Shown piece after piece: positions 5,092 to 26,071 of a DNA stretch of 64,000 nucleotides. Made by a program: the position numbers and the translations under genes. The notes below the pieces were generated by a model. That model ran no database searches. It worked only from the letters and a program-made list of their open reading frames with translations, and was not told the DNA's origin. Origin of the DNA: Hymenobacter psoromatis (GTDB lineage: Bacteria; Bacteroidota; Bacteroidia; Cytophagales; Hymenobacteraceae); the NCBI GenBank assembly GCA_001596155.1, contig CP014771.1, positions 5,180,844 through 5,244,843 on the forward strand. Direction: 5' to 3'. Position 1 is the first letter of the stretch, and each line of letters starts with the position of its first letter.

Positions 5092-5340
5092 ATGAGTAAG
5101 TTCCTCACCTACGGCCTGGCCCTGGCCAGTCTGACCCTATTTGCCACCGGCTGCTCCGACAACAAGAGCCCCACCGAAACCACCACGGCTACCCCCGTCA
5201 CTGCGGCCGCCCCCCCCGACAGCACCGCCGTACCCGCTGGCCTGGCTACCCAGTACACCTGCCCCATGCACCCCGAAGTGGTGGCCGACCAGCCCGGCAA
5301 GTGCCCGAAGTGCGGCATGAACCTGGTGGTGAAAAAGTAA
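5092..5340 (+). CDS. Heavy-metal-binding-domain lipoprotein
   Basis: 82 residues from the ATG at 5092. Residues 1-20 are a lipoprotein signal (LFATGC lipobox). After a Thr/Pro/Ala linker comes one heavy-metal-binding domain: [19 protein letters not shown], then KCGMNLV. This YTCPMHP...CP.CGM.L module is the one found at the N-terminus of CusB-type adaptors, and the same module occurs in both adaptors at 27306-30144. Probably a periplasmic Cu/Ag chaperone or buffer. The gene stands alone after the pseudogene cluster. Confidence 0.85.
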
Positions 5341-5771: not shown

Positions 5772-8321
5772 CTAAAACCGCACCCTCAGGCCGCCACCGC
5801 CGCCAAAGCGGTTATCGTAGCTACCCATCAGCGAGAAGTTGCGGGAGAGCATATACTCTAGCCCGCTGTTCCAGACTACTTGCTTGGAGAAGTTGCGGTT
5901 GTTTTCCAGCTTGTTTACCCACCCAAAGTCAACCTGGTACTCATAATAGCCGAACGCCAGCAGTCGGGGGAAAATCATAATCTCGCGGCCCAGGCTGATG
6001 CGGGGGCGCAGCTGGTTGTCGATACGGGCATCGAGGCTGAACAGGTAGGGCGTCAGGAAGCGCAGGCCGACTACGGCCGTCGTGGTGGTTTTAATCACCA
6101 CCTTGCCGTTCACCTGTTCTGTGGCGGGCGACATCATTCGTTTCCGGAAGTTCTCTACGTTTACGCCCCCAAACACGCGCAGGTAGTCGTAGAGGTAACG
6201 CTCGTAGGTAGCCTCCGTTTCCATATTGCGGTTCCAGCCGTTCTCCACGCTCAGGTTAAACTGGTTGCGGATGTTGGACGATACAAGGTTCAACGTGCCC
6301 ATGTGCGAGGCGGCGTCGAGCAGGCCCCAGGTATAGTACTTATCAGTCTCGTGTAGTAGTTTGCTCACCGGTGAGCCCTTCAGGCGCGGGTCGCGGGGCG
6401 TATCGTAGCTCACGATGCGGGCCATGCCACTGGTGAGGTGGTAGAGAATGTGGCAGTGCAGAAACCAGTCACCCGACTCATCGCCCAGCACCTCAATCGT
6501 GACCTGCTTCATGGGCGGCACGTTCACGACGTTCTTCAAAGGTGAGTACTCGCCGTTTTCGTTGATGACCCGGAAAAAGTGCCCGTGCAGGTGCATGGGG
6601 TGGTGCATCATCGTCAGGTTGTTGTAGGAAATACGCGTAACCTGGTTGCGCCGAATCGGGATTTTATCGGCCGATTTCAGGGGCACGCCGTTCATGCTCC
6701 AGACGTAGCGTTGCATGTTGCCGGTGAGGTTGAGCAGCACGTTATGCACGGGTAGGCTGTCGGCGTAGGCCGTCCGCTTTAGCGCGCGCAGGTAGTCGTA
6801 GTTGTACTCCGAAAACATGTCCATGCCGCCCATGCCGGCCATCTTCTTGTCGCCGCCCATGTCCATGCCGGCCATCTTCTTGTCACCACTCATGTCCATG
6901 CCGGCCATTTTCTTGTCGCCGCTCATCGACATATCGTGTCCGGCGTGAGCCGTGTCAGCGGCCATCTTCGTGCCATCCATCTTCATGCCGGCCATATCGG
7001 GCTTAGATGAAGTCGGCTGGTCGCCCATCTTCATGCCGGCCATTTTCTTATCGCCGCTCATGTCCATGCCAGCCATCTTCTTGTCGCCATCCATATCTAT
7101 GCCGCCCATTTTCTGGCCGCCGCTCATATCCATGCCAGCCATTTTCTTGTCGCCGCTCATGTCCATGCCGCCCATGTCCCCTTTTTTATCCTTTTTGCCC
7201 ATCTGCATGCCCCAGTTGGCTTTCATCTGCTGAGGGTCAACGTGGTTGGGCCGGAACTTGAGGGCCGGCGCGCCCATGCGCATGTCCATCTTGGCCATCT
7301 GCTGCATGAGCGCGATTTTATCGGGCCGGACCAGCACCGGGCCAGCCACTACCGGGCCCGTGCCCAGGTAGGCCACGGTAGTGCCCGAACCGTCCTGGGC
7401 CATTGCCCGCAGCTCCAGCTTACCGGTGGGCGGAATGGTCACCAGAAAATCGTAGGTTTCGGCCACCGCGATGAACGTCTTGCTGTGCTTGACCGGCACC
7501 ACGTCTTGTCCGTCAGAAGCAACCAGCAGCGGGTCACCGCCCAGGCTCGTCCAGAACTGGGTCGAGGCCGAGCCGTTGACGACGCGCAGGCGCACCCGCT
7601 CGCCGGGCTTCAGGTCCGGATACTGCTGTTCCGGCTGGCCATTGACCAGGAAGGCATTATAGTACACGTCGGCGATGCCGAAGGCATTCATGCGCTGTTT
7701 CCAGAAGTTGAGCTGCGCCCCGAAGGCCCCGCGGGCAATTACGCGGTTGAGCGGCGTGGCCGTGCCCTTGGCGATGTTGTACCAGTCGGTGCCCCGCTTG
7801 AGGTAGCGCAGCACGTTTTTGGGCTTCTGATTGGTCCAGTCCGAGAATACCACTACCAATTCCTTGTCATACTTCAGACGTTCCTGCTTGGCCTCAATGA
7901 CGATAGCCCCAAATTCCCCGCTCTGCTCCTGTAGCATCGTGTGCGAGTGGTACCAGTAAGTGCCGGCCTGCTTGAGGGGAAACTGGTATTTCTGGGTCTG
8001 GCCCGGCTCAATGGGCGGCGTGTTGAGGTAGGGTACGCCGTCGTAGAAGTTGGGCACCAGCAGGCCATGCCAATGCACCGACGTTGCTACGGACATCTCG
8101 TTCTTGACGTAGATAACGGCGTAGTCACCCTCCGTGAAGTGCAACGTAGGACCAGGAACGCTACCGTTGACGGTCATACCCATCACGGGCTTGCCCGCCT
8201 TGTTCACCATCTCCTCCCGCATAGTCAGGCGGTACACGGTCGTATCGGTCTGGGCCCCGGCCGGCCGGACCATGAGCAACAGGCCGATTACAGCCAGGAT
8301 TTTACTAAAAGTAGAAGTCAT
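5772..8321 (-). CDS. copA: Multicopper oxidase (CopA-like) with Met-rich linker and CopB-like barrel
   Basis: 849 residues with a signal peptide (cleavage near PAGAQ). Cupredoxin domain 1 carries HWHG (83-86) and YWYHSH (122-127); domain 3 carries HPMHLHGHFF (574-583) and HCHILYHLTSGM (622-633), so all oxidase copper ligands appear intact. Residues about 380-502 are Met-rich repeats built on GDKKMAGMDMS, far longer than usual. After the last copper site about 190 residues continue (WGLLDAASHMG, ENGWNRNMETEATYERY) and end GGGGGLRVRF; this resembles CopB-type outer-membrane barrels, suggesting a CopA-CopB fusion anchored in the outer membrane. Expected role is Cu(I) oxidation and copper tolerance. 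It faces the same way as the complex I-like operon, 797 bases downstream of it. Confidence 0.9.
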   Translation of the reverse strand: MTSTFSKILAVIGLLLMVRPAGAQTDTTVYRLTMREEMVNKAGKPVMGMTVNGSVPGPTLHFTEGDYAVIYVKNEMSVATSVHWHGLLVPNFYDGVPYLNTPPIEPGQTQKYQFPLKQAGTYWYHSHTMLQEQSGEFGAIVIEAKQERLKYDKELVVVFSDWTNQKPKNVLRYLKRGTDWYNIAKGTATPLNRVIARGAFGAQLNFWKQRMNAFGIADVYYNAFLVNGQPEQQYPDLKPGERVRLRVVNGSASTQFWTSLGGDPLLVASDGQDVVPVKHSKTFIAVAETYDFLVTIPPTGKLELRAMAQDGSGTTVAYLGTGPVVAGPVLVRPDKIALMQQMAKMDMRMGAPALKFRPNHVDPQQMKANWGMQMGKKDKKGDMGGMDMSGDKKMAGMDMSGGQKMGGIDMDGDKKMAGMDMSGDKKMAGMKMGDQPTSSKPDMAGMKMDGTKMAADTAHAGHDMSMSGDKKMAGMDMSGDKKMAGMDMGGDKKMAGMGGMDMFSEYNYDYLRALKRTAYADSLPVHNVLLNLTGNMQRYVWSMNGVPLKSADKIPIRRNQVTRISYNNLTMMHHPMHLHGHFFRVINENGEYSPLKNVVNVPPMKQVTIEVLGDESGDWFLHCHILYHLTSGMARIVSYDTPRDPRLKGSPVSKLLHETDKYYTWGLLDAASHMGTLNLVSSNIRNQFNLSVENGWNRNMETEATYERYLYDYLRVFGGVNVENFRKRMMSPATEQVNGKVVIKTTTTAVVGLRFLTPYLFSLDARIDNQLRPRISLGREIMIFPRLLAFGYYEYQVDFGWVNKLENNRNFSKQVVWNSGLEYMLSRNFSLMGSYDNRFGGGGGLRVRF
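6818..7184 (-). repeat. Tandem Met-rich coding repeats in the copper oxidase
   Basis: Degenerate tandem units encode variants of MAGMDMSGDKK about ten times, with Gly-, His- and Lys-containing variants (GHDMSMSGDKK, GGQKMGGIDMDG). The period is mostly 11 codons. Such arrays bind Cu(I) and expand or contract by slippage. Confidence 0.85.
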
Positions 8322-9118: not shown

Positions 9119-10495
9119 TCAGAAAAAGGTCTGCGCCGCCAGCGTGAGCCCCAGCGTAACCAGCAGGCAGGCCACGACGACCGTGCGGATTTCCCAGGCG
9201 GGTGCCAGCGGCGCTGGTGGGCCGCCGGGCGCGGCGAAGTACATGGCCACGATAATCCGGCTGTACACGGCCAGCGCGATGGCGCTGTTGAGCACGGCGA
9301 TAACGGCCAGCCAGGTGTAGCCGGCCGCCATTGCCGACTCGAACAGCAGCAGCTTGCCCGTGAACCCGGCCAGGGGCGGGATGCCGACCAGCGAGAACAG
9401 GAAGACCGTCATGGCCAGGCCCGTGAAGATGCGCGTGGTGCCGAGGCGCTTAAAATCAGCCAGCGTGCGGCCGGTGTGCAGCACGATGGCAAACGCGCCC
9501 GTGTTCATGGCGGCATAGGCAGCGGCGAATACCACCAGGGCCGGCAACGCCATCGCCCCGCGCACCCCCACCAGGGGCAGCAGAAAATACCCGGCCTGCG
9601 CTACCGTGGAGTAGGCCAGCAGGCGCACCACGTTGGTTTGCAGCAGGGCCAGCACGTTACCGAAAGTCATCGACGCCACGGCCAGCAGGGCCAGCACCAG
9701 CGGCCAGTCCACCGCGGTGGCGGGCAGCGACCGGCACACCTGCGCCAGCCCGAAAAAGGCCCCAATCTTGGGCACCACCGACAGGTAGGCGGCCACCGAC
9801 ACCGGGGTCCCCTCCAGCGTGTCGGGCGTCCAGAAGTGGAAGGGAAATACCGACGCCGCGTACCCCAGGCCGGTGAGGAGGGCCACGAAGCCGAACGCCA
9901 GCAGCGGCGCGGGCAGGTTGGGCTGGCTCAGCGCTCTCAACAGGGTGCTGCCCGTGATACCCACCCAGTAGCTCAGCCCAAAAACCAGGATGGCCGTCGT
10001 GACGGTGCCGTAGATGAAGTACTTCAGCGCGCCCTCGGTGCCGGCCTCGGTTTTGGCGTAGGCCGCCAGGGCAAAGCCGCTCAGGCTGGTCATGAGCAGG
10101 CCCAGCACGAGCAGCATCACGTCGCCGCTGCCGGCCAGCACCAGCGCCCCCAGCGTGCCGAAGCAGAGCAGGCTGTAAACGGTGCCTTCGCGCGGAGTGC
10201 CGCGCAACTCCTGTCGGGCCAGCAGGCAGCACAGCACCGCAGTCGGACACAGAATCAGCACGCTCCAGTGGTTGAGCAGCCCGACCCGGAACGTGCCCGA
10301 AAACGCCGTGGCCTGCACCGCCAGCCGGCCGGCGCTCACCACCGTGGCCGCCCCCAGGCCCACGGCCACGGTGGCCAGGCCCGCCCGTCGCCAGCGCAGC
10401 ATCTCGGCTACCAGGGCCAGCATGGCCGTCAGCAGCACGATAAGCTGCGGCAGCACCAGGCGCAGGTCCTGGGCCATGCTCCCGCCGCTATTCAT
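9119..10495 (-). CDS. nuoN: NuoN-like membrane subunit (divergent)
   Basis: 458 residues, about 14 transmembrane helices, last gene of the complex I-like operon. The start ATG overlaps the nuoM stop by 8 bases; an alternative start 18 bases in (MAQDLRL) is possible. Family landmarks are present: ALKYFIYGTVTTAILVFG, FPFHFWTPDTLEGTP, PKIGAFF and LLAYSTVAQAGY. Two residues important for proton translocation in canonical NuoN look replaced: the TM5 Glu (ELMSL becomes LLMTSL) and the TM7 Lys before PFH.W (FK.S becomes YAAS). It may therefore be a weakened or altered channel. Family identity is sure; the residue losses come from hand alignment. Confidence 0.9.
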   Translation of the reverse strand: MNSGGSMAQDLRLVLPQLIVLLTAMLALVAEMLRWRRAGLATVAVGLGAATVVSAGRLAVQATAFSGTFRVGLLNHWSVLILCPTAVLCCLLARQELRGTPREGTVYSLLCFGTLGALVLAGSGDVMLLVLGLLMTSLSGFALAAYAKTEAGTEGALKYFIYGTVTTAILVFGLSYWVGITGSTLLRALSQPNLPAPLLAFGFVALLTGLGYAASVFPFHFWTPDTLEGTPVSVAAYLSVVPKIGAFFGLAQVCRSLPATAVDWPLVLALLAVASMTFGNVLALLQTNVVRLLAYSTVAQAGYFLLPLVGVRGAMALPALVVFAAAYAAMNTGAFAIVLHTGRTLADFKRLGTTRIFTGLAMTVFLFSLVGIPPLAGFTGKLLLFESAMAAGYTWLAVIAVLNSAIALAVYSRIIVAMYFAAPGGPPAPLAPAWEIRTVVVACLLVTLGLTLAAQTFF

Positions 10496-11960
10496 GGCCC
10501 AGCACCTGTTGCGTGGCGTGAATGACCCGCAGCAACGCCTCGGGGTAGAGGCCTAGCCCCACAATCAGGACGATGAGCGGAACGATGGCCCACAGCTCGC
10601 GGCCGGACAAGTCGGCCGGGGGGAGGGCGGTGGCGGGGGCCTCCCCCAGAAATACCCGCTGGATGGCGCGCAGGTAGAGGGCCGTGGTAAGCAGCAGCCC
10701 CAGCAGCAGCAGCGCCGTCATCACGGGCGCTACCTCGTAGCCTCCCAGGAAAATCTGGAACTCGGCGGGGAAGTGCGCCAAAGCCGGCAGGCCCAGCGAG
10801 GCGAAGGCCGCCAGGATAAACAGGCCGCTCAGCAGCGGGTAAACCTGCGCCAGCCCGCCGAGCTGGTCCATTTCGCGGGTGTTGGTCCGGTCCTGGATGG
10901 CCCCGATTAGCAGAAACAGGCAGCCGGTGACAATGCCGTGGCTGACCATTTGCAGCACGGCCCCGTCGAGCCCAAAGGCGCTGCCCGTGGTGGTGAGCGC
11001 CGCTGCCCCGACCCCGAACACCACGTAGCCCATGTGGTTGACGCTGGTGTAGGCCACCAGCCGCTTGATATCGGTTTGGCCCAGTGCGGCCAGCGCCCCG
11101 TAAATGGCCGAAAACAGGGCCAGGGCCATCACGTAGGGCGCAAACTGCCGGAAAGCGTCGGGGGTCATCTGCAAACTGAAGCGGATGAAGCCGTAGCCGC
11201 CCAGCTTCAGCATCACCCCCGCCAGAATGACGCTGCCCGCCGTTGGGGCCTCGGTGTGGGCCACCGGCAGCCAGGTGTGAAAGGGAAACAGGGGCGTTTT
11301 AATGGCGAAGGCCAGGAAAAAGGCCCAAAAGGTGAGCGCCGCCGCCGTGCCGGTCAGGGGCGGGTGGGCCAGCAGCATCCGCATATCGAAGGTGTGCGGA
11401 GCGGCATTGAGGTAGAGGGCCAGAAAAGCCAGCAGCAGGAATAGGCTGCCCACCAGGGTGTAGATGAAAAAGATGAGAGCGGCCTTTTTGCGGTTCTCGT
11501 GGCCCCAGCCGGCAATGATGAAGTACATGCCCACCAGCGTCAGCTCGAAAAAGACGTAGAACAGCAGCAGGTCCAGCGCCAGGAAAGCTCCCAGGCAGGC
11601 CGTTTCCAGCAGCAGCAGCAGGGCCACGAAGCTGCTGGGCTGTTCCGAAACCTTCGCCGAGTAAATCATGGCCACCAGAAACAGCACCGCCGTGAGCAGC
11701 ACCAGCGGCAGGCTAATGCCATCGACGCCCACGCAGTAGGCGGCCCCCAGCGACGGAATCCAGCGCAGCTCCTCCACCTGGGCGAAGCCGCCAGGCACGC
11801 CGCGCACCCAGATGAGCGCGGTGGCCACCACCGTAAGGGCCGTGGTGCCGATGCCCAGCGCAAAAGCCAGTGCCCGGCGCTGGGTGCGAAGCAGCAGCAG
11901 CACCAGCGCCCCCAGCAGGGGCAGAAAAATACTGATGGAGAGTAGCGGAATATGCTGCAT
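10488..11960 (-). CDS. nuoM: NuoM-like proton-channel subunit
   Basis: 490 residues with about 14 transmembrane helices. It keeps the TM5 glutamate (FFELTLVGMYFIIAGWG), the TM7 lysine motif (FAIKTPLFPFHTWLP.AHTEAPT) and LVAYTSVNHMGYVVFG. These are the residues used for proton translocation in complex I and Mrp antiporters, so this channel looks functional. It overlaps nuoN by 8 bases and starts 9 bases after the nuoL stop, implying one transcript with coupled translation. Confidence 0.94.
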   Translation of the reverse strand: MQHIPLLSISIFLPLLGALVLLLLRTQRRALAFALGIGTTALTVVATALIWVRGVPGGFAQVEELRWIPSLGAAYCVGVDGISLPLVLLTAVLFLVAMIYSAKVSEQPSSFVALLLLLETACLGAFLALDLLLFYVFFELTLVGMYFIIAGWGHENRKKAALIFFIYTLVGSLFLLLAFLALYLNAAPHTFDMRMLLAHPPLTGTAAALTFWAFFLAFAIKTPLFPFHTWLPVAHTEAPTAGSVILAGVMLKLGGYGFIRFSLQMTPDAFRQFAPYVMALALFSAIYGALAALGQTDIKRLVAYTSVNHMGYVVFGVGAAALTTTGSAFGLDGAVLQMVSHGIVTGCLFLLIGAIQDRTNTREMDQLGGLAQVYPLLSGLFILAAFASLGLPALAHFPAEFQIFLGGYEVAPVMTALLLLGLLLTTALYLRAIQRVFLGEAPATALPPADLSGRELWAIVPLIVLIVGLGLYPEALLRVIHATQQVLGHE

Positions 11961-11969
11961 AAGTGCGAG

Positions 11970-13853
11970 TTAGAGAAGCGTAAAAAACAAAACGGCCCCC
12001 AGAACCAGCAGCCCGGCCACCGTCCACAGCAGCTCCTGGTGAATCAGCCCGGACTGGGTTCGCCGGCTAAGCTGCCCGGCTTTTTTTACCGCGGTGCCTA
12101 CCTCGTCAATGGCCCCCGCGATGCCGGTCTCCGCCGACTGGCGAATGCCGTCCGCCAGTGTCAGGGTGCGGTGGCCCGCCGCCTGGGCGGCACTACTTAG
12201 GCCGGCATCGGCGGCGGCACCGACGGTGGCCAGGCTCAGCGCGGCCTGGCCTACCCCCAGCACGAGCTGGTGCAGGCTCAGGTCGAAGTCCCGGCACCAG
12301 GCCGCCAGGGCCAGCACCGGCCGCCCCACCACGGCCTCGAAGCCGCCGGCCAGGGGGTAGTTCTGCTGCGCGAACCGGAGCACGGGCTGCCGGAAATCAG
12401 CGGCGCGGAACAGGAAGAAGCCGACTCCCAGGCCCCCGACCGCCGCCGCCAGCCCGCTGAATTGGGCCGTCGCATTTTCCGGCAGTGTCAGCCCCACGAA
12501 GCGGAGCGCCGGGGCCAGCAGGCCCCCGCCCACTACCACGCCGCCCACCAGCAGCGCCAGCCCCGCCCGCATAAACCAGATGCCGCGGACGGCGGCGGTC
12601 GGCGGGCGCTCGGGACCAGTCCAGAGCAGCCGGAGGGAGCGCCCCATGTAGAGGGCCGTGAGCGCCGCCCCCAGCACCGCCACGCCGAAGTACGGCCCCG
12701 GATGGCCGGACTGGTAGCCGGCCGTCAGCACCGCGTCCTTTGACCAGTAGCCCACCAGCGGCGGCACCCCGGCCAGCGCCAGGCCGGCCAGCGCCCAGCC
12801 GCCAAACGCCCAGGGTGCCCACCGGCCGCTGCCGCTGATGCGGGGGAAGGCCGTGTCGTCGTTTTGGTGCTGAAAGATGCCCGCACTCAGAAACAGGCTG
12901 CTTTTCATGAAGGCGTGCGCCAGCAGGTGCGCCACGGCCGCCGCCGGCGAACCGGCGGCCAGGGCCAGCAGCATAAACCCCAGCTGGCTGGACGTGGAGG
13001 CGGCCAGCAGCTGCTTGATGTCGTTGCTGACCAGGGCCGTCAGGCCGGTCAGCACGATGGTCAGCCCCCCCACGGCCCCCACGAACGGCAGGCTGGCCGG
13101 GGGCAGCAGCGGGTAGGCCCGGAGCAGGAGCACCACCCCGGCGGCCACCATCGTGGCCGAGTGCAGCAGCGCCGACACCGGCGTCGGCCCCGCCATCGCC
13201 CCCGACAGCCAGCTCTGGAACGGCACCTGCGCCGACTTGCCCATCACGGCCAGCAGCAGCGCCAGCGCCCCCACCAGCGAGAGCAGCTGGCCCGGCTGCG
13301 GCTCAATGAGGTTGGTGCCGGTTTGCAAAATGATGAGCACCACGCCCAGATAGAGGCCCAGGTCGGTGCCGCGGGTGAGCAGAAAGGCTTTAAAGGCCCC
13401 CTGCCGGGCTTTTTCTTCCCAGTGCCAGGTCGCAATCAGCAGGTAGGACGCCAGCCCCATCAGCTCCCAGCCGGTGATAAACAGCAGCCAGTCGGCAGCC
13501 AGCACCAGCAGCTGCATCGCGGCAATGAAGAGCATCATGCTGCTCCAAAACCACACCTTACCCCGCTCGCGGGCCATGTAGCCGCGGGCGTAGGTCAGAA
13601 TCAGCAGCGCCACGACGGCCACCACCAGGGCCAGCACCGCCGTAAAAGGCGTGGCTTCCAGCCGAAACGGCAGGCCAGGCAGACCCGGCAGCGTGAGCCC
13701 GGCCGCCGTGTGCTGCCGCACCTGGTAGAGCAGGCCGCCCGCGCCGGCCAGCGAAGCCAGCCCGCCGGCCAGCCCCAGCGCCGCCGGAAACCGGCGCAGC
13801 GCCACCATCAGCAGGCCCGCCAGCAGGGGCGCAAGGAGAATCAGCGCTATCAT
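11970..13853 (-). CDS. nuoL: NuoL-like proton-channel subunit with lateral-helix tail
   Basis: 627 residues. The TM5 Glu (GWELMGLASYLLI), the TM7 Lys (GKSAQVPFQSWL) and the GPTPVSALLHSATMV and NDIKQLLAASTSSQLG signatures are intact. The C-terminus has an amphipathic Ala-rich stretch of about 110 residues ending in a hydrophobic helix, matching the lateral HL helix and last TM of NuoL. That helix normally runs along M and N toward J, so the subunit probably assembles in the usual order. Its start overlaps the nuoK stop by 4 bases (ATGA). Confidence 0.94.
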   Translation of the reverse strand: MIALILLAPLLAGLLMVALRRFPAALGLAGGLASLAGAGGLLYQVRQHTAAGLTLPGLPGLPFRLEATPFTAVLALVVAVVALLILTYARGYMARERGKVWFWSSMMLFIAAMQLLVLAADWLLFITGWELMGLASYLLIATWHWEEKARQGAFKAFLLTRGTDLGLYLGVVLIILQTGTNLIEPQPGQLLSLVGALALLLAVMGKSAQVPFQSWLSGAMAGPTPVSALLHSATMVAAGVVLLLRAYPLLPPASLPFVGAVGGLTIVLTGLTALVSNDIKQLLAASTSSQLGFMLLALAAGSPAAAVAHLLAHAFMKSSLFLSAGIFQHQNDDTAFPRISGSGRWAPWAFGGWALAGLALAGVPPLVGYWSKDAVLTAGYQSGHPGPYFGVAVLGAALTALYMGRSLRLLWTGPERPPTAAVRGIWFMRAGLALLVGGVVVGGGLLAPALRFVGLTLPENATAQFSGLAAAVGGLGVGFFLFRAADFRQPVLRFAQQNYPLAGGFEAVVGRPVLALAAWCRDFDLSLHQLVLGVGQAALSLATVGAAADAGLSSAAQAAGHRTLTLADGIRQSAETGIAGAIDEVGTAVKKAGQLSRRTQSGLIHQELLWTVAGLLVLGAVLFFTLL

Positions 13854-14164
13854 ACGCCTTCCTCCTTTAAGTCAGCTGCCTCTTCTACCTCCACCGAGCC
13901 CCGGCTGCGGAAGCGCTGGGTCGCCAGGGCAAAGCCCACCGCCGCTTCCAGCGCCATCACGGTCATCACCACCAGCACGAACATTTGCAGGGCGTAGGTG
14001 TGGGGGTGCAGCAGCCGCCAGAACGCCACCAGGTTCAGCATGGCCGCAGCCAGCATCAGCTCCACGCCCATCATAATCATGACCAGGTTCGTCTGGCTGA
14101 TAACGCCATACAGGCCCAGGGCAAACAACACGGCGGCGATACTCAGGCAAATCAGGAGAGCCAT
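13850..14164 (-). CDS. nuoK: NuoK-like membrane subunit
   Basis: 104 residues, three transmembrane helices, usual NuoK length. It carries GVISQTNLVMIMMGVELMLAAAMLNLVAF, in which the TM2 glutamate of the conserved MG.ELML.A.N motif is kept, and VLVVMTVMALEAAVGFAL with the TM3 glutamate. Both glutamates form part of the central hydrophilic axis in complex I. It starts 2 bases after the nuoJ stop and overlaps nuoL by 4 bases. The C-terminus is acidic (EVEEAADLKEEG). Confidence 0.93.
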   Translation of the reverse strand: MALLICLSIAAVLFALGLYGVISQTNLVMIMMGVELMLAAAMLNLVAFWRLLHPHTYALQMFVLVVMTVMALEAAVGFALATQRFRSRGSVEVEEAADLKEEGV

Positions 14165-14166
14165 AC

Positions 14167-14682
14167 TCAGTCGGGTTGCGGGGGATAAACGAGGGCGGTA
14201 GCCGCGGCGGCTATCATGGCCACCAGGATGGTGGTGCCGGCGGTTTCAAAAATCATCATGGAGCGGGTCATCAGTTCGATGCCCAAATCGTGGTTCTGCT
14301 GGGTGGCGGTGGGCACCCGCGCGAGCGGCGCGGGCCAGTTGGTGCTTAGCAGCAGGGCCAGCACCAGGGCGGCCACCGCCGCGCTGAGGGCCGTGGCGGG
14401 CTTCTGCTGGTGGGTCATGTTCATGTTGCCCAGCCCGCCGGGGTCCATCATGAACATCATCATGAAGAAGGCCATGATGCTCATCTCGGCCGCCATCATC
14501 ATGATTTGCAGCACGCCCAGAAACTCGGCCTGCAACACCAGAAACATGGCCCCCAGCGCTACCATGCAGGCCAGCAGCGACATGGCCGAGCGCACCATCG
14601 AGTGGGTGCGGAACACCCGCCAGCCAAACCAGACGGCGGCCAGGCCAAACCCGGCCAGAAAAAACAGTTGCAACGGGTTCAT
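14167..14682 (-). CDS. nuoJ: NuoJ-like membrane subunit
   Basis: 171 residues from the ATG at 14682, which overlaps the nuoH stop as ATGA. Five transmembrane helices. SMVRSAMSLLACMVALGAMF and LQAEFLGVLQIMMMAAEMSIMAFF match the NuoJ TM2-TM3 pattern (LhAeFla.iQiivYaGAimvLflF), but the YaGAi.vL part reads MMAAEMSIM, so the pi-bulge region is altered. TM3 and the loop after it are unusually methionine-rich (FFMMMFMMDPGGLGNMNM), which fits the Met-rich theme of this operon. Confidence 0.88.
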   Translation of the reverse strand: MNPLQLFFLAGFGLAAVWFGWRVFRTHSMVRSAMSLLACMVALGAMFLVLQAEFLGVLQIMMMAAEMSIMAFFMMMFMMDPGGLGNMNMTHQQKPATALSAAVAALVLALLLSTNWPAPLARVPTATQQNHDLGIELMTRSMMIFETAGTTILVAMIAAAATALVYPPQPD

Positions 14683-15590
14683 AGCAGTAGTAGAATTCCG
14701 ACCCACAGAATATTTAAAAGCGCGGCCGGCGTGGCGTACTTCCAGCTCCACTCCAGCATAAGGTCGTACCGAACCCTCGAAACGTAGCGGCCGACCCCGA
14801 AAAAGGAGGCCGCGACCAGCAGCGTTTTCAGGAGCGTCCAGACCACGCCCGGCAGCCCGGAACCCTGCCAGCCGCCCAGGTAAAAGACGGTAATGGTAAC
14901 GGCCAGGCTCATCACCAGGCTCAGGCGCCCCAGCCGGAGCACCAGCCGCCGGGCCCCCGTGAAGTCGGCCCAGGCCCCGCCAGCCAGCTCGCCGGCGGCC
15001 ACGGGCAGGTCGAAGGGGGGTAGGAAGGCCAGGGCCAGCGCCGCCAGGTAGAACAGGCCGAAGCCGACCGGCTGGTAGATGATGTTCCACAAGCCGCGCT
15101 GGGAAAGCACAATCTGCACCGGCACCATCGACTCGGCCCGCATCACGGTGGCCGTCAGTGCCATCACCATCGGCATGGAGTAGGCCAGCAGCTGCCCCAG
15201 AAAGCGCCAGCCCCCTATCATGGCGTATGCGCCGTTGCTCGACCAGCCGCCCAGCACCAACGCCACCATCACGTAGGCAAACGCGGCGTTGACGAACAAA
15301 GCCCCCGTGGCCAGGCTTAGCAGCGGCGCGCTGGCCGACCAGGGCAGCACTGCGGCCGCCAGCGTGCCGGCGGCCAGCAGCAGCACGGGCGCGGTTTCGT
15401 AGAACACGGCATCCCGCTGGCGGGGCTTGATTTCCTCGCGCGCCAGCAGCTTCAGCGCCAGCCGCACCGGCCTAGTCCAGGCCAGTCGCCCGGCCACCGA
15501 CCAGTATTCGAGCACGGCCAGCGCGTACACGCCGCCCGCGAAAAGCAGCACGACCAGCAGCGTAGTAGCAAGAGTAGCGCTATTCTCCAT
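14679..15590 (-). CDS. nuoH: NuoH-like membrane subunit with altered quinone-site loops
   Basis: 303 residues, about eight transmembrane helices. Landmarks: LKLLAREEIKP.QRD (canonical LKLL.KE...P..AD), GGWSSNGAYAMIGGWR (canonical GWSSN.KY...G..R) and PPFDLPVAAGELAGG (canonical PFDLPEAE.ELVAG). Differences: the ERK.L...Q.R.GPN..G cytoplasmic loop that lines the quinone site is replaced by a short EYWSVAGRLAWTRP; SYE.P becomes AYSMP; and two of the PFDLPEAE.E acidic residues are gone. It overlaps the upstream fusion gene by 11 bases. Identity as NuoH is clear; quinone binding is doubtful. Confidence 0.9.
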   Translation of the reverse strand: MENSATLATTLLVVLLFAGGVYALAVLEYWSVAGRLAWTRPVRLALKLLAREEIKPRQRDAVFYETAPVLLLAAGTLAAAVLPWSASAPLLSLATGALFVNAAFAYVMVALVLGGWSSNGAYAMIGGWRFLGQLLAYSMPMVMALTATVMRAESMVPVQIVLSQRGLWNIIYQPVGFGLFYLAALALAFLPPFDLPVAAGELAGGAWADFTGARRLVLRLGRLSLVMSLAVTITVFYLGGWQGSGLPGVVWTLLKTLLVAASFFGVGRYVSRVRYDLMLEWSWKYATPAALLNILWVGILLLL

Positions 15591-17586
15591 CGGCGGCTGT
15601 ATAGTGGGTCAGTTCCCAGGGCGAGATGTCCAGGGAGGCAATGGTTTTCAGCGCGTCGCCCAGCTCCAGTTCCCGCACGCCGGCCCGCACCAGGGCCGCG
15701 TGCGGCACGGAGGGCGGGTGCAGCACCGCGCTCACTACCTGGCCCGCCTGCACCTGAATAGTCAGCGTGGCCGTGCCGCGGGGCGTTTCCACGGCGGCGC
15801 TGCCCTGTCCGGTGCCGGCCAGGTCGGTTAGCAGCGGGGCCGCCGCCGCCGGGCCGGCGTGGTTGGCCTGAATGGCGCGGAGCAGCTGCTGGCTCTGGGT
15901 CAGCTCGTCGAGGCGGACGAGCAGCCGCCCCCAGGCATTATTCTCATCAATTACCAGCGGCGCAAAGCCCAGCGGCTGGTAGGCGGGGTCGGTCAGGCGG
16001 GCATCGTGGGCCAAGCCCGCGGCCCTGGCTACCGGCCCCCGGCAGTGGTGCAGGAGCAGTTCGGGCAGCTCCCCGACCGGGCTCAGGCTGCGCCGCAGCA
16101 GCGGCAGCTGCTTGACCCGCCGCACAAATTTCGGTAGCTCATCCGGCGTGGCGGTTCTCCGCACCATGCGGCCGTGCAGCCGCGCCGCCGCCTGTTGCAG
16201 CCAGTGGTTGCCAATCGTCAGACCGAAGCCCGCCAGCCAGTTGAGGTGACTGGCGAGGCGGGTCTGTTCCAGCTGGCTGACCTGCCAGCGTTGCGCCGCC
16301 GCCGGGGCCGGCTGCCCCAGGGCCTGGCTGAGGGCGCGGTGCGCCAGCACGCGGTAGGCCGCCGGGGCCAGCTGGTCGTGGCCCGCCAGCCACTCGGCGA
16401 ACTGCGCCGCCAGCACGGGCAACAACGGGTAGTCAAGAGCAGCCGTTCCGGGCACCAGCTGGGCCTTCGTCACCGTGTCGCCGTCCAGGTGCAGGCGCAG
16501 CTGCAAGCCACCAGGCAGGCCGGGAAAGAAGGGGCCGAACGCAACTTCCGTCGCTTCCATCGGCAAACCGTCGGCACTGCGGGGCAGGTCCTTGGTCATG
16601 GCTACCATTGACATGAAGCCCATATCCATACCGGCCATATCTCCACCGGGCATATCCATACCGGCCATGTCCATGCCAGGCATGTCCATACCGGCCATGT
16701 CGCCCTGCTTCGTAGCCATCTTACCGCTCATGTCGGCCATGTCCATATCGTGCGCTCCCATGTCATGCGCACCCATATCCATTTTTGGCTGATGGTCAGT
16801 CATATTCATATCGCCCGCCGCCGTATCTCCTGCTTTTTTACTTTTCCCCTCACCGCTCATATCCATGCCGGCCATGTGGTGGTGGCCGCTTGGTGGCGGC
16901 TGGTGCCCTGCCGGGTGAGACTGGTCGGCGGCCGGTGGGGCCGGCGTGGGGCTGGACTGGTCGGGGGCATGGTGCGCGTGTTGACCGACTCCCGCTGCCG
17001 GGGGCTCCTGCGCGGCCCCCGGGGCCGGCATGGCATGGTGCCCATGCACACCGAGTTCGGGCGGGGCCGGTTCGGCTGGCTTTGATTCCGTAGTAGGCGA
17101 AGAGTGGTGATGGGCGTGGTCGTCCGCCGGGGGCTTCTGCTCTTCGGCCTGCCGGATGAACGCTGGCTCGTAGGGGCGGGCATCGGGACTCCAGCCGTGC
17201 GCCGCTAGCTGCTGGCGGCCGGCCGGGCCAAGCTCCAGCAACCCGGCCTGGTGCAGCGGAATCACCACGTCGGGGGCGGGTAGCGGCGGGGCGGCCTCCA
17301 GGCCGGCGAACACCAGCAGGCGGGGCCGGGGCATCTGGGCGAAGAGTACGGCAGCTTGCTCGGCGAGCCTGGGCGGCAGCGGCCCGGTCACCAGCAGCAC
17401 GTCGGCACCGTTGGGGGTAGCGGCCGTTTCCAGGCCGGCCGCGCCCAGGTCCAGGCCCAGGGCGCGCGCCACGTCCGGCCCCGGCACCACCAGCACCCGC
17501 AGTACCAACGCGCCAGCGCCCAGCAGCCACTTCTTCAGCGGACTCAACAGGCCCAGCCGGGCACCAGACAGGAGCGCATCTGCCAT
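15580..17586 (-). CDS. Cysteine-less NuoB-NuoD-like fusion with His/Met-rich insert
   Basis: 668 residues. Residues 1-140 resemble NuoB: NGADVLLVTGPLPPRLAEQ and FAQMPRPRLLVFAGLEA correspond to .aDvliV.G.lt.kmap....QMPePr.vi.mGsCA. No cysteine that would ligate cluster N2 is present (CC, GSC and PGCPP are all missing). Residues 155-330 are low-complexity and rich in His and Met (GHHHMAGMDMSGEGKSKK; MAGMDMPGMDMAGMDMPGG). Residues 335-668 resemble NuoD: LPMEATEVAFGPFFPGLPGG (canonical GPhHPs.HG, so the quinone-site His is lost), then SHLNWLAGFGLTIGN. NuoC is not recognisable. It lies between nuoA and nuoH where B, C and D belong. No Fe-S or quinone chemistry is expected; metal binding by the insert is inferred. 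Confidence 0.8.
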   Translation of the reverse strand: MADALLSGARLGLLSPLKKWLLGAGALVLRVLVVPGPDVARALGLDLGAAGLETAATPNGADVLLVTGPLPPRLAEQAAVLFAQMPRPRLLVFAGLEAAPPLPAPDVVIPLHQAGLLELGPAGRQQLAAHGWSPDARPYEPAFIRQAEEQKPPADDHAHHHSSPTTESKPAEPAPPELGVHGHHAMPAPGAAQEPPAAGVGQHAHHAPDQSSPTPAPPAADQSHPAGHQPPPSGHHHMAGMDMSGEGKSKKAGDTAAGDMNMTDHQPKMDMGAHDMGAHDMDMADMSGKMATKQGDMAGMDMPGMDMAGMDMPGGDMAGMDMGFMSMVAMTKDLPRSADGLPMEATEVAFGPFFPGLPGGLQLRLHLDGDTVTKAQLVPGTAALDYPLLPVLAAQFAEWLAGHDQLAPAAYRVLAHRALSQALGQPAPAAAQRWQVSQLEQTRLASHLNWLAGFGLTIGNHWLQQAAARLHGRMVRRTATPDELPKFVRRVKQLPLLRRSLSPVGELPELLLHHCRGPVARAAGLAHDARLTDPAYQPLGFAPLVIDENNAWGRLLVRLDELTQSQQLLRAIQANHAGPAAAAPLLTDLAGTGQGSAAVETPRGTATLTIQVQAGQVVSAVLHPPSVPHAALVRAGVRELELGDALKTIASLDISPWELTHYTAADGE
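16597..17124 (-). repeat. His/Met-rich low-complexity insert in the NuoBD-like fusion
   Basis: About 175 codons between the NuoB-like and NuoD-like parts. The first half is Pro/His-rich (HAHHH, GVHGHHAM, GQHAHHAP, GHHHMAGMDM); the second is built from MDM, DMAGMDM and GAHDM units. The unit MAGMDMSG occurs also in the copper oxidase linker at 6818-7184. Confidence 0.85.
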
Positions 17587-17587
17587 A

Positions 17588-17950
17588 TTATTGCCGTTTC
17601 AGTCCGCCCTGGTTCCAGGTGTACACTAGGCCCAGAAATAAAATAAGCAGGAAAACACCCATGTCTAGCAGGGCCGTGATACCCAGCTTCTTGTAGACGA
17701 CCGCCCACGGATACATGAAGGCCATTTCCATATCGAAGCACAGAAAGAGCAGGGCAAAGCCGTAGTAGTGAACGTGGTACCGCACCCAGGCGGGTTCCAC
17801 GGCCAGCCGGCCGCTTTCGGCAGGCACGTCCTTGCCCGGCTCAGCTACCGGCGGGCCCAGCGAGAATTTAACCAGGTAAAGCAGCCCGGCAAAGACCCCG
17901 GTGCAAGTCAGCATCCCCAGCAGCAAGAGGTAGTGGGAGTCGTTGGCCAT
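17588..17950 (-). CDS. nuoA: NuoA-like membrane subunit
   Basis: 120 residues, three transmembrane helices, first gene of the operon. YYGFALLFLCFDMEMAFMYPWAVVY matches the family's FYl.AllFliFDlE..FlyPWA, with the FD.E acidic pair intact. The loop motif K.PYECG reads PAESGRLAVEPAWVRYHVHYY, keeping the EsG core. TM1 is standard. The stop is one base before the fusion-gene start. The GC content is high like that of the rest of the operon. Confidence 0.92.
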   Translation of the reverse strand: MANDSHYLLLLGMLTCTGVFAGLLYLVKFSLGPPVAEPGKDVPAESGRLAVEPAWVRYHVHYYGFALLFLCFDMEMAFMYPWAVVYKKLGITALLDMGVFLLILFLGLVYTWNQGGLKRQ

Positions 17951-18854: not shown

Positions 18855-19247
18855 ATGGAAACAGCCACAAAGACCTTGACTACCACGCAAACCTTTCCCG
18901 TGGAGGGAATGCTTGCGGGGGCTGCGTCAATAGTGTGCAGCGCGCCCTGGACCGCGTGGCGGGCGTCAGCGCCGCCACAGTTGACTTGCGGACAGCTTCA
19001 GCCACGTCAAGTACGACCCAGCGATAGCCGATTCACCACTTTGCAAAAGGTCGTCGATGACGCAGGTTATGCCCTAAGGCAGCCCGGTAGTGCGCCGGTT
19101 GACTCGGCTAAAAAATCCGGCGGCGGCTACACCATCATTTACATCAAGAATAAAATGAACGGGGAGATGTCGGTGTATTGGCACGGGGTACTAGCACCTA
19201 GTTTCTACAATGGCGTGTCCTTTGATTTCAAGGTGTTGGCTGCTTGA
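18855..19247 (+). pseudogene. Chimeric remnant: HMA metal-binding domain joined to multicopper oxidase piece
   Basis: Opens METATKTLTTTQTFPVEGM, the start of an HMA (CopZ-like) domain. The next codons should be TCGGC, and these exist one frame over (TCGGCVNSVQRALDRVAGV, then SAATVDLRTASAT). Two further single-base shifts give VKYDPAIAD and then FTTLQKVVDDAGYALR, back in the first frame. So three one-base deletions destroy the CxxC copper site while the open frame survives by chance. After a short linker comes YTIIYIKNKM...SVYWHGVLAPSFYNGVSF, equivalent to YAVIYVKNEM...SVHWHGLLVPNFYDGVPY in the intact oxidase. It ends there. Confidence 0.75.
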
Positions 19248-22823: not shown

Positions 22824-24173
22824 ATGATTGAGCGACTTATTTCCCTTTCCCTGCGCAACCGGGGCGTGGTGTTGGTGGTGGCGGCGGTGCTGCTAGTGTG
22901 GGGTATCTTTTCCATCCGGGCCAGCAAGATTGACGCCATCCCGGACTTGTCCGAAAACCAGGTCATTGTGTTCACGGAGTGGGCCGGGCGGGGGCCGCAG
23001 ATTATTGAGGACCAGGTGACTTACCCCCTCGTCACCAACCTGCAAGGGCTGGCGCAGGTGCGGTCCGTGCGGGCAGCGTCCATGTTCGGGATGAGCTTCG
23101 TGTACGTTATTTTCAACGACAACACCGACATCTACTGGGCGCGCGAGCGGGTGCTGGAGCGGCTCAACTACGCCCAGCGACTCCTACCGCCCGGCCTTAC
23201 CCCCACCCTCGGCCCCGATGGCACGGGCGTGGGCCACGTGCTCTGGTACGTGCTCAAAGCCCCCAAAATGGATCTGGGCGAGCAGCGTGCCCTGCAAGAC
23301 TGGTACGTGAAATTTGGCCTGCAAACCGTGCCCGGCGTGAGCGAGGTAGCCAGCTTCGGCGGCTTCCAGCCCGAGTACCAGGTGACGGTGGACCCCACCA
23401 AACTGACGTATTATAACGTGAGTTTACCGCAGGTACTAGCGGCGGTGCGCAGCAACAACAACGAGGCCGGCGGGCGCAAATTTGAGCAGGCCGGGGTGGG
23501 CTACATCATCAAAACGAGCGGCTATATTCAGGACGTGGCCACTCTGGAAAATGTGCCGGTGCTCACCCGCCCCAACGGCGTGCCGCTGCGCCTGCGCGAC
23601 CTCGGCACGGTGCAGATGACGGGCGAAGCCCGCCTCGGCATCTTCGACCACAACGGGCAGGGTGAGGCCGTGGGCGGCATCGTGGTGATGCGTTACGGCG
23701 AAAACGCCGACGACGTGATAACCCGCGTGAAGGCCAAAATGACCGAAGTCGCCAAGGGCCTACCCCCCGGCGTGTCGTTCGACATCGTGTACGACCGCAG
23801 CGGCCTCATCAAGGAATCGGTGGCCAACATCGAGCACACGCTGCTGGAAGAAATGGGCGTGGTGTCGCTGGTGGTGCTGGTGTTCCTCTTCCACTGGCGC
23901 AGCGCGCTGAGCATCCTGCTCCAGATTCCGATTAGCATCGCGGCGAGCTTCATTCTGCTCAACGCCTTCGATATCTCGTCCAACATTATGTCCCTGACGG
24001 GCATTGCCTTAGCCATCGGTGTCATCGTGGATAATGGCATCGTGATGGCTGAGAATGCCTACCGTAACCTAGCGCTGCACCAGGCGGCGGAGGAAGCGGC
24101 CGCCTCCGGGGCACCGCCCGGCCCGGCCGCCCTCGCCAATAATTCATCCCTTCAGCCCGTGCATCATGACTAA
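22824..24173 (+). CDS. cusA: CusA/CzcA-type RND pump, N-terminal part (frameshifted)
   Basis: 449 codons ending in a TAA. It covers TM1 (GVVLVVAAVLLVWGIFSIR), the first periplasmic porter domain and TM2-TM4 up to LTGIALAIGVIVDNGIVMAEN, which holds the TM4 aspartate of the proton relay. The frame then continues only to ...LQPVHHD and stops. The rest of the pump (24166-26058) is in another frame. Removing the single T in GACTAACGAC gives a continuous HHDNDERLAIIEKSSKQ, so a one-base insertion is the simplest explanation. The combined length, about 1077 residues, is normal for a heavy-metal RND transporter. Confidence 0.85.
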   Translation: MIERLISLSLRNRGVVLVVAAVLLVWGIFSIRASKIDAIPDLSENQVIVFTEWAGRGPQIIEDQVTYPLVTNLQGLAQVRSVRAASMFGMSFVYVIFNDNTDIYWARERVLERLNYAQRLLPPGLTPTLGPDGTGVGHVLWYVLKAPKMDLGEQRALQDWYVKFGLQTVPGVSEVASFGGFQPEYQVTVDPTKLTYYNVSLPQVLAAVRSNNNEAGGRKFEQAGVGYIIKTSGYIQDVATLENVPVLTRPNGVPLRLRDLGTVQMTGEARLGIFDHNGQGEAVGGIVVMRYGENADDVITRVKAKMTEVAKGLPPGVSFDIVYDRSGLIKESVANIEHTLLEEMGVVSLVVLVFLFHWRSALSILLQIPISIAASFILLNAFDISSNIMSLTGIALAIGVIVDNGIVMAENAYRNLALHQAAEEAAASGAPPGPAALANNSSLQPVHHD

Positions 24174-26058
24174 CGACGAGCGCCTCGCCATTATCGAAAA
24201 GTCCAGCAAGCAGGTGTCGCGGGGCATTTTTTTCTCCACGATTATCATCGTGGCCTCCTTTCTGCCGGTGTTTTTGCTCACCGGGCAGGAGGGCAAGCTG
24301 TTTCACCCGCTGGCGTTTACCAAGACGTTTATCCTGCTCATTGATGCCGTGCTGGCCGTGACGCTGGCCCCGGTGCTGCTGTCCTTTTTTATGAAGGGCC
24401 AGTTCAAAACCGAGGAGCAAAACCCCATCAACCGGGGCCTGGAGCGGGTGTACGCGCCGCTCATCAACTGGTGCCTGACCTGGCGCAAAACTACCATCGG
24501 CATCAATCTGGCGCTGCTGGCGGTGAGCGTGCCGCTGCTGCTGAGCCTGGGCACCGAGTTTATGCCGCCGCTCGATGAGGGCTCGATTCTGTTCATGCCC
24601 GTGGCGCAGCCCGACGTGTCGAACACCGAAATCAAGCGCATTCTGCAAGTGCAGGACCGCATTATCAGCCAGGTGCCGGAGGTGAAAGGCGTGCTGGGCA
24701 AGGCCGGCCGGGCCAGCACCGCTACCGACAACTCGCCGCTGAGCATGATTGAAACCATCATCCAGCTCAAGCCCCGCGCCGAGTGGCGGCCCGGCCTGAC
24801 CAAGGCCAAGCTGATTGAGGAGTTGAACGGCAAGCTGCAAATTCCGGGGGTAGTGAACGGCTGGACGCAGCCCATCATCAACCGCATCAACATGCTGAGC
24901 ACCGGTATTCGGACCGACGTGGGCGTGAAAGTATATGGCCAGCAGCTCGATACGATTTACAACGTATCGCAGCGGGTGCGGGCGGCGCTGCGCGGCGTGC
25001 CCGGCGTGCAGGACCTGTACGTGGACCCCATCACGGGCGGCAAGTACTTACAAATTGACCTGAAACGCGACCAGCTGGCCCGCTACGGCCTGAGCGTGGA
25101 CCAGGTGAACGAAGTAGTGGAAATGGCCATCGGCGGCGCGCCGGTGGCCAGCACCGTGGAGGGTCGGCGGCGCTTCGCCATCGGCGTGCGCCTGGCCGAA
25201 GACTACCGCAACAGCCTGCCCGCGCTGGGCCGCATCCCCATCCAGACGACCGCCTACGGCCCGGTGCCGCTCTCGGCCGTGGCGACGCTGCGCTTCGAGA
25301 ATGGCCCGCCCATGATTAACTCCGAAAATGCGCAGCTGCGCGGGGCGGTGCTCTTCAACGTGCGGGGCCGCGACCTGGGCGGCACCGTGCAGGAAGCCAT
25401 GCAAAAAGTGCAGGCCATGCAGGGCAAGCTGCCCGCCGGCTACTACCTGGAATGGAGCGGGCAGTACGAAAACCTCATCAGCTCAGAGCGCACGCTGCTG
25501 CTGATTTTGCCCGTGGTACTACTCGTGATTTTCGGGTGTTTATACTTCGCCTTCCACTCGGTGCGCGAGGCGCTGCTGAGCTTGGTTACTATCCCGTTCG
25601 CGCTCATTGGCGGGGCCTATCTGGTGTATTTCTACGGGGTGCATTTGTCGGTGGCGGTGGCCGTGGGCTTCATCGCCCTCTTCGGGCTGGCCGTGGAAAC
25701 GGGCGTCATCATGGTCATTTACCTCAACGACGCCATGCAGCAGCTGGTGGCCCGCAAGGGTAATTCGAGCGAGACTATCACCAAAGCCGACTTGCGCGAA
25801 GCCGTGTTTCACGGCGCGGCCAAGCGACTGCGGCCCAAGCTGATGACGGTCTCGGTGGCGCTGTTTGGGCTGGTGCCGGTGCTCTGGGCCACGGGCACCG
25901 GCTCCGACGTGATGCTGCCCATCGTGCTACCCATGATTGGGGGCGTGTTCACGTCCTCGACACACATTCTACTGGTTACGCCACTCATTTTTCTGATGAC
26001 AAAAGAGTATGAGCTGCGCAAGTTTGGCAAGTTGGACGTGCTGGCGGTAACTCATTAA
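24166..26058 (+). CDS. cusA: CusA/CzcA-type RND pump, C-terminal part
   Basis: 630 codons from an ATG that overlaps the stop of the upstream part by 8 bases (ATGACTAA). It starts with ERLAIIEKSSKQVSRGIFFS and then SFLPVFLLTGQEG, the usual CusA/CzcA continuation, and includes the second porter and docking domains and the six C-terminal helices (IGGVFTSSTHILLVTPLIF). If the overlap permits reinitiation, the pump could be made as two polypeptides split inside a cytoplasmic loop; otherwise the operon has no working pump. Confidence 0.85.
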   Translation: MTNDERLAIIEKSSKQVSRGIFFSTIIIVASFLPVFLLTGQEGKLFHPLAFTKTFILLIDAVLAVTLAPVLLSFFMKGQFKTEEQNPINRGLERVYAPLINWCLTWRKTTIGINLALLAVSVPLLLSLGTEFMPPLDEGSILFMPVAQPDVSNTEIKRILQVQDRIISQVPEVKGVLGKAGRASTATDNSPLSMIETIIQLKPRAEWRPGLTKAKLIEELNGKLQIPGVVNGWTQPIINRINMLSTGIRTDVGVKVYGQQLDTIYNVSQRVRAALRGVPGVQDLYVDPITGGKYLQIDLKRDQLARYGLSVDQVNEVVEMAIGGAPVASTVEGRRRFAIGVRLAEDYRNSLPALGRIPIQTTAYGPVPLSAVATLRFENGPPMINSENAQLRGAVLFNVRGRDLGGTVQEAMQKVQAMQGKLPAGYYLEWSGQYENLISSERTLLLILPVVLLVIFGCLYFAFHSVREALLSLVTIPFALIGGAYLVYFYGVHLSVAVAVGFIALFGLAVETGVIMVIYLNDAMQQLVARKGNSSETITKADLREAVFHGAAKRLRPKLMTVSVALFGLVPVLWATGTGSDVMLPIVLPMIGGVFTSSTHILLVTPLIFLMTKEYELRKFGKLDVLAVTH

Positions 26059-26071
26059 AGCTTTTGATGCT

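Follow-up and report, generated by a model that had tools for sequence, protein, structure and literature searches.

A conserved, very probably copper-linked complex I-like operon of Hymenobacter psoromatis suggests a respiratory pump turned copper exporter

The final 64 kb of a 5.24-Mb contig of Hymenobacter psoromatis (the window, from a genome of three contigs with completeness 100) contains, at 9119–17950 of the minus strand, eight genes encoding NuoA, a fusion of NuoB- and NuoD-like parts, and NuoH, J, K, L, M, and N. Their products resemble a proton machine of the complex I type from which the electron-carrying parts are gone and to which metal-binding arms and a membrane core rich in methionine have been added. 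Such a makeup suggests that a respiratory pump has been turned into a proton-driven copper exporter. The operon is real, conserved, and very probably copper-linked, and this link is surer than the antiporter reading; judged from sequence, the chances appear about even that the complex belongs to the complex I superfamily but works without redox chemistry, as a Cu(I)/H+ antiporter exporting Cu(I) (or Ag(I)) from the cytoplasm by a logic like that of Mrp antiporters.

Loss of Redox Ligands and Gain of Metal-binding Tracts

All eight gene products match Pfam families, the NuoB part of the fusion only below the cut-off, bearing out the eight-gene minus-strand operon described in an earlier note made from the letters of the window. 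The E-values are 1.6e-50 for NuoH, 4e-19 for NuoK, 1.5e-55 for NuoL, 2e-69 for NuoM, 1.5e-47 for NuoN, and 2.7e-20 for NuoJ, which was scanned from 14655, nine residues short of its true start at 14682; the fusion matches Complex1_49kDa at 1.9e-11 and the NuoB family (Oxidored_q6) at 0.11. The curated NCBIfam cut-offs are passed by NuoM and NuoK only, the other subunits being recognized below them. The absence of NuoC, E, F, G, and I, also claimed in that note, agrees with tblastn searches (E 1e-4) in which the same genome's own canonical NuoB, C, D, E, F, G, and I had no match in the window outside the fusion, although very divergent homologues could escape such queries. The standard nuo genes for which the note had proposed a check elsewhere in the genome were found within a search scope of NuoA to NuoK: canonical NuoA through NuoJ lie in one locus (L005, C3:4438000-4457999; NCBIfam) and canonical NuoK at C3:1888988. 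The genome also carries a second copy of the operon (locus L004), with operon DNA 88–97% identical. A promoter scan (3 found against 1.9 expected from shuffles) and a terminator scan (22 against 8.3) gave nothing usable.

The fusion is predicted to fold as NuoB and NuoD around a metal-binding insert of low model confidence. In a profile built from 52 family fusions and compared with Protein Data Bank (PDB) sequences, residues of about 355–664 match MbhL (1.1e-27) and NuoD chains, residues 45–95 match NuoB and MbhJ chains (6e-8 at best), and the insert matches entry 8ovl, named as a copper P-type ATPase, at 2e-8. The AlphaFold2 model of the window fusion has a mean predicted local distance difference test score (pLDDT) of 76.1 and a predicted template modeling score (pTM) of 0.73, with 356 residues at 90 or above and residues 174–317 below 50. 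Foldseek places the model with NuoD/49-kDa subunits at 1.1e-15, and the highest target TM-score among the 50 matches listed, 0.75, is with the MBS chain 6u8y_L. The kinship of the fusion with NuoB and NuoD that the note had proposed is supported by both profile and model.

Two losses that the note had pointed out, those of the N2 cysteines and of the quinone-site histidine, are confirmed and extend through the family. The four NuoB cysteines that hold cluster N2 are missing from the window fusion, whose sole cysteine, C515, lies in the D-like part, and among the aligned family fusions no column of the NuoB-like part has cysteine in more than 6 of 52. The quinone-site motif GPxHP reads GP[FL]FP in the family, with Phe354 in place of the histidine in all 52; Met325-Ser-Met327, Met343, and Phe354 are invariant in the same set. 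The cysteines that bind the metal centers of group 4 [NiFe] hydrogenases and Mbs are missing from the window fusion as well. Changes beyond those in the earlier note are found in NuoH, where Ala or Ser takes the place of Glu157 in 79 of 81 and Trp that of Arg46 in 77 of 81, so that the quinone side of NuoH seems to be remodelled too. It should be noted that the E. coli numbers of key residues, here and below, are those that we take to apply, and that the alignment speaks to the letters at those places.

Between the B- and D-like parts, at about residues 155–323, lies the His/Met-rich insert that the note had seen; the window fusion has 33 His and 30 Met and lacks an HMBD motif. Of 88 fusion open reading frames (ORFs) read, 70 were uncut, and removal of four shorter than 480 residues and of the Arthrobacter protein left 65 full-length fusions: an HMBD motif is recognized by pattern in 51, the insert is His/Met-rich in another 12, and the remaining 2 have a short His/Met motif only. 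HMBD (PF19335) was confirmed by Pfam in one fusion, that of S. faviae. A second, plasmid-borne subfamily with a short fusion comprises the Halomonas, Acuticoccus, Roseivivax, and Arthrobacter members. The three proteobacterial members examined (loci L215, L216, and L217) have no insert but a His-rich C-terminal tail on NuoJ, which is long in Acuticoccus and Roseivivax and short in Halomonas. In Arthrobacter it is the fusion that carries a tract, of the MDHG type. A metal-binding tract of the same kind is thus carried by two different subunits, the fusion in the main family and NuoJ in the second subfamily, and by analogy with complex I both tracts would face the cytosol: the ND3 and ND6 loops of complex I lie at the interface with the peripheral arm (PMC7613608), and the TMH3-4 loop of ND6 is shown among the loops of the quinone-site section (PMC10036122).

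Methionines of the Membrane Hinge and the Proton-channel Subunits

Alignment columns in which Met reaches 85% or more and E. coli has another residue number 15 in NuoJ, 7 in NuoK, 6 in NuoH, and 4 in NuoA, compared with 6 in NuoN, 2 in NuoM, and 1 in NuoL. When the columns shared by most canonical homologues are removed (one each in NuoK, H, and A), 15, 6, 5, and 3 remain in NuoJ, K, H, and A, respectively. The control, which covers these four subunits only (30 canonical NuoJ, 30 NuoA, 30 NuoH, and 26 NuoK of the same genomes), has 1, 1, 1, and 2 columns of at least 85% Met in all for NuoJ, A, H, and K. The hinge methionines are mostly missing from canonical homologues of the same genomes.

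In NuoJ, all 82 family members have Met at the position of E. coli Tyr59 (Met63 of the window), where all 30 canonical proteins have Tyr; at the position of Ala62 in transmembrane helix 3 (TM3; Glu66 of the window), all 82 have Glu and 29 of the 30 canonical proteins have Ala. Met29, Met62, Met63, Met67, Met70, and Met74 are likewise Met in all 82, and Met87, Met89, and His91 are each retained in 81. NuoA keeps Asp73 and Glu75 (E. coli Asp79 and Glu81) and has gained His59, Met74, Met76, and Met79. Some positions are not clear gains: NuoA Met97, NuoK Met32, and NuoJ Met76, because they are Met in canonical proteins too, and NuoH position 113 and Met150, because canonical NuoH has Met there in 19 and 15 of 30. 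The second subfamily retains most of the NuoJ, NuoA, and NuoK methionines.

The key proton residues of NuoL and NuoM are all present in the window and each occurs in at least 67 of 73–74 relatives, as the note had stated for their Glu and Lys. NuoN differs, a point absent from that note: Glu133 is replaced by Leu or Val in 66 of 74, and the window protein has in addition Ala in place of Lys217. The same anatomy would serve a copper-gated proton channel or sensor, in which a leak is switched on or off by Cu(I) on the arm and, during copper stress, reduces the proton gradient. Such a device is distinctly unlikely: a gate would hardly need three antiporter subunits and about twenty conserved methionines in the hinge, and a leak would weaken Cus efflux, which requires the proton gradient. 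Of the drivers considered in the earlier note, a non-redox, copper-linked one finds support in the loss of the N2 cysteines and of the quinone-site histidine, in the metal-binding tracts of relatives, and in the copper-gene neighborhoods of many of them, whereas its gated proton leak is disfavored because the conserved methionines and the new Glu in the A/J/K/H hinge favor a conduit for a soft metal ion over a mere gate.

Distribution, Gene Order, and Copper Neighborhood

Among 59 genomes searched, the operon is present in 3 of the 37 of the same genus, this one included; three further weak matches in other genera cover only 54–56 residues of the NuoB-like part. Hymenobacter sp. UV11 is the closest named kin of the window locus in a NuoH tree. 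A protein-only scan of genome contigs gave no relatives; an alignment-based pattern scan of the GTDB contigs then gave 95 stretches, the best 80 of which were kept and represent 79 distinct loci in five phyla: Bacteroidota, Actinomycetota, Chloroflexota, Pseudomonadota (alpha and gamma), and Deinococcota. One of the family members is the locus of a Marinobacter antarcticus metagenome-assembled genome (L036). With loci found otherwise added and duplicates removed, 88 were examined for gene order, which the note had proposed to look for in other Bacteroidota and which recurs there and in four further phyla: A-BD-H-J-K-L-M-N is complete in 58, partial but in order in 24, and flagged in 6. The partial loci are mostly cut by contig ends, the exception being L077, which lies in a long contig and seemingly lacks NuoM and NuoN; five flagged loci have a contig end inside the operon together with a cross-hit homologue, and L087 has no NuoK or NuoL match. 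The seven canonical peripheral-subunit queries had, outside the fusion, a single match in these 88 loci (L050; tblastn, E 1e-4), and supply of such subunits in trans is possible. In 31 of 33 genomes, reached via 34 of the 79 loci, a second NuoJ of canonical type with a much better Pfam score is present. In a NuoH tree of 72 rows, made by a quick method without bootstrap and with Arthrobacter on a long branch, 40 family rows split from 32 canonical rows with an SH-like approximate likelihood ratio (SH-aLRT) of 100. Loss of the redox residues and of the Glu and Lys of NuoN might be read as the decay of a complex I kept by chance or as a functionless relic, but this is scarcely credible given the fixed order across five phyla, the residues invariant in 82 of 82 NuoJ, and the two copies in this genome; such conservation already disfavors it.

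The family is also found in 17 plasmid records, 16 recognized by NuoJ (12 of them also by the fusion) plus Arthrobacter FB24; a NuoH search returned 160 plasmid records, mostly uninspected and many probably canonical, and a search for near-identical DNA on plasmids gave a single match of 63 bases. Within the plasmid flanks viewed (12–20 kb, shorter at record ends), copper or heavy-metal genes are annotated near the operon in 15 of the 17 records and include CueR or CsoR-type regulators, P-type ATPases, multicopper oxidases, CopB, and CusA. On the Paracoccus aerodenitrificans plasmid, the only such neighbor is a heavy-metal P-type ATPase, and in the flanks of the Thioclava and Paracoccus sediminicola plasmids none was seen. 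Contig loci were compared with controls, which are genome contigs only: 26 copper templates were searched within 10 kb of the 50 (of 78) loci flanked by 5 kb or more of sequence and in 20 windows located close to canonical nuo genes, the windows coming from 20 of the same genomes. At E 1e-10, copper features were found at 20 of 50 loci (6.7 per 100 kb) and in 1 of 20 controls (0.25 per 100 kb); at E 1e-6, the values are 24 of 50 (8.0 per 100 kb) and 2 of 20 (0.5 per 100 kb). The templates were drawn from family plasmid copies or from the window and may therefore favor their kin.

In Rubrobacter and Chloroflexota, CopZ-like heavy-metal-associated proteins, CsoR-type regulators, and P-type ATPases stand upstream of nuoA. 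Together with the metal-binding arm, they are consistent with an energized hand-off, in which inward-moving protons would move the arm, Cu(I) would be stripped from chaperones, and a neighboring copper ATPase would be loaded, copper itself not crossing the complex. This reading, which resembles DabAB in its logic, is unlikely, and it leaves the conserved methionines within the helices of NuoJ, K, and A unexplained.

The window neighbors are listed with the operon in Table 1, and a DUF305 gene is likewise among them. The CusA-like gene (22824–26058) consists of two ORFs that overlap by 8 bases. A short ORF at 18738–19247, upstream of nuoA on the opposite strand, contains a stretch resembling the multicopper oxidase (38% identity). 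At the second copy of the operon, multicopper-oxidase pieces flank it on both sides, and a gene of the same 332-residue type lies further out. Among other loci, a Pyr_redox_2 protein (Pfam; L033:8407-9600) has related proteins in L048, L065, L085, and L098 and is directly upstream of nuoA in L033 and L048; a conserved protein of ∼390 residues with no Pfam match lies beside the operon (L033:18330-19490, L068:8281-9465, and others), in a cluster that spans nine loci. The rhodobacterial plasmids L017, L018, L218, L221, L222, and L223 have a DUF6629 gene near nuoA, and L018, L222, and L223 have an additional antiporter-subunit gene on the opposite strand.

Table 1. Positions of the operon genes, their parts, and copper-related neighbors in the window
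Feature	Position	Strand	Basis or remark
NuoA-like subunit	17588..17950	-	120 aa; Pfam Oxidored_q4 2.2e-27
NuoB~metal insert~NuoD fusion	15580..17586	-	668 aa; Pfam, profile, AlphaFold2, Foldseek
NuoB-like part, residues 12-150	17137..17553	-	zero cysteines; cysteine count, profile, AlphaFold2
His/Met-rich insert	16618..17124	-	mostly pLDDT <50; site of relatives' HMBD motifs
Met-Ser-Met, M325-S326-M327	16606..16614	-	start of NuoD-like part; invariant, 52/52 aligned fusions
NuoD-like part, residues 324-662	15601..16617	-	GPFFPG replacing GPxHP; profile, AlphaFold2, Foldseek
NuoH-like subunit	14679..15590	-	303 aa; E157 lost; M124, M139, M143, M150 present
NuoJ-like subunit, Met-rich	14167..14682	-	171 aa; Pfam and alignment
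NuoJ TM3 methionines M61-M79	14446..14502	-	including M63, and invariant E66; alignment
NuoJ TM3-TM4 loop motif M87-x-M89-x-H91	14410..14424	-	each residue in 81/82
NuoK-like subunit	13850..14164	-	E35, E73 kept; M29, M61, M67, M70 gained
NuoL-like antiporter subunit	11970..13853	-	key residues intact
NuoM-like antiporter subunit	10488..11960	-	key residues intact
NuoN-like antiporter subunit	9119..10495	-	E133 and K217 equivalents lost
Multicopper oxidase with MDM-type Met repeats	5772..8321	-	downstream of operon, same strand; Pfam
Small HMBD protein	5092..5340	+	Pfam HMBD 1.1e-14
Cus-type efflux genes: CusA-like (two ORFs), two CusB-like with HMBD	22824..30144	+	Pfam on second CusA ORF and both CusB only

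Relation to Known Systems and Proposed Mechanism

The statement in the earlier note that no complex of this composition had been described is nearly right. Eddie et al. (2021; PMC8233155) reported seven genes, nuoADHJKL and one hypothetical, that lie within a copper cluster in Marinobacter atlanticus and are more highly expressed together with it on an electrode at 160 mV. Like the window operon, that cassette places complex I-like genes within a copper cluster; compared by description, it differs in that no nuoM or nuoN is reported, and the available account does not mention a metal-binding insert, lost N2 cysteines, hinge methionines, or a spread over several phyla (PMC8233155). No other prior mention was found among the titles and abstracts listed in searches of open-access literature, a scope that excludes most subscription journals and bioRxiv, and as far as that literature shows the insert, the loss of redox ligands, the hinge methionines, the second subfamily, and the wide spread are not in print. 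Eddie et al. suggest copper redox as the energy source of the cassette (PMC8233155), and a corresponding pump, in which Cu(I) oxidation at the cytosolic arm supplies electrons or charge to drive outward proton pumping, would fit the copper co-expression and co-localization in Marinobacter and the intact NuoL and NuoM. For the present family it is very unlikely, as the NuoB part has no conserved cysteine, operon-linked NuoE–G and NuoI are missing, the quinone-site histidine is gone, and no electron acceptor is recognizable among the eight operon genes.

The family shares NuoA, H, J, K, L, M, and N and the NuoB and NuoD folds with respiratory complex I (NDH-1) but has no operon-linked NuoC, E, F, G, or I, no N2 cysteines, and no quinone-site histidine; it has the hinge methionines and forms a separate NuoH clade. 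Mbh provides the best profile match of the fusion and Mbs the highest target TM-score among the matches listed, but with its single cysteine the window fusion lacks the cysteines for Ni or Fe-S, and a NiFe-type identity was rejected on this account. A DabAB-like identity was also rejected, no ninth gene of that kind being found with the eight. With HMBD proteins of the copper P-type ATPase and CusB types, PF19335 is common to the S. faviae fusion and the CusB-like neighbors, the membrane parts being unrelated. The Mrp Na+/H+ antiporter is non-redox and has L/M/N, J, and K homologues in common with the family; according to PMC7419157, the C-terminal domain of MrpA with the small subunits is assigned to Na+, with the key Glu706 at the position of complex I Tyr59. 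Like Mrp, the window complex would work by cation/proton exchange. It differs in adding NuoA, NuoH, and the B- and D-like parts, all eight genes being in nuo families and none Mrp-only, and in having Met at the MrpA Glu706 position in 82 of 82 NuoJ, with an invariant Glu three residues on. The antiporter reading is based on this Met and the new Glu one turn on, together with the retained proton residues of NuoL and NuoM.

A fuller version of the antiporter reading is put forward tentatively, as somewhat more probably wrong than right: the redox arm would have become a metal-capture arm and the E-channel a Met-lined passage for Cu(I), so that the complex would be a Cu(I)/H+ antiporter, one that occurs in five phyla, often on plasmids. 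For the antiporter reading itself, with its about even chances, the gene content, the losses, the metal-binding tracts, the methionines, and the neighbors are observed, and the metal's identity, its transport, direction, and coupling are what we infer. The cytosolic arm, NuoB~D with its HMBD or His/Met tracts, would capture Cu(I), which would pass the invariant Met-Ser-Met, close to where the quinone site used to be, the NuoJ loop residues Met87, Met89, and His91, and NuoA His59, and enter the Met-studded hinge of NuoA, H, J, and K. A methionine path between the helices of NuoJ, K, and A is possible. NuoJ Met63/Glu66/Met67, where complex I has Tyr59 and Mrp its Na+ residue Glu706, would be the coupling site; inward proton flow via NuoL and NuoM, NuoN being degenerate, would supply the driving force; and the periplasmic multicopper oxidase and Cus proteins would receive the copper.

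Several observations weigh against this antiporter scheme. NuoN lacks Glu133 and itself has six of the Met columns, and the NuoH methionines are mostly lost in the second subfamily. The nine TM3 methionines of NuoJ are not gathered on a single side of the helix (R 0.16, shuffle fraction 0.69), an argument against a simple ladder in one stripe, and a one-face arrangement is obtained only for five of them picked after the fact. No geometry supports a continuous path, because NuoJ modeled by itself has low confidence (pTM 0.32), and the family rows are related rather than independent samples. Of the 50 contig loci, 30 have no copper-template match within 10 kb at 1e-10 (26 at 1e-6), and about 26 of these 30 are alpha- or gammaproteobacterial contigs; some of the blanks reflect missing templates, as at L047, where Pfam recognizes a CusB-like HMBD protein.

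It has long been asked how reactions at one end of complex I move protons at its other end. If the Cu(I)/H+ antiporter reading is true, a natural relative in which most of the proton machinery is retained and which drives, or is driven by, a metal ion, a cation in place of quinone, would separate coupling from electron transfer. The proteins, currently annotated as "NADH-quinone oxidoreductase" and "heavy metal-binding domain-containing protein," would then represent a copper exporter of a new class, one that plasmids carry in marine bacteria and in others.

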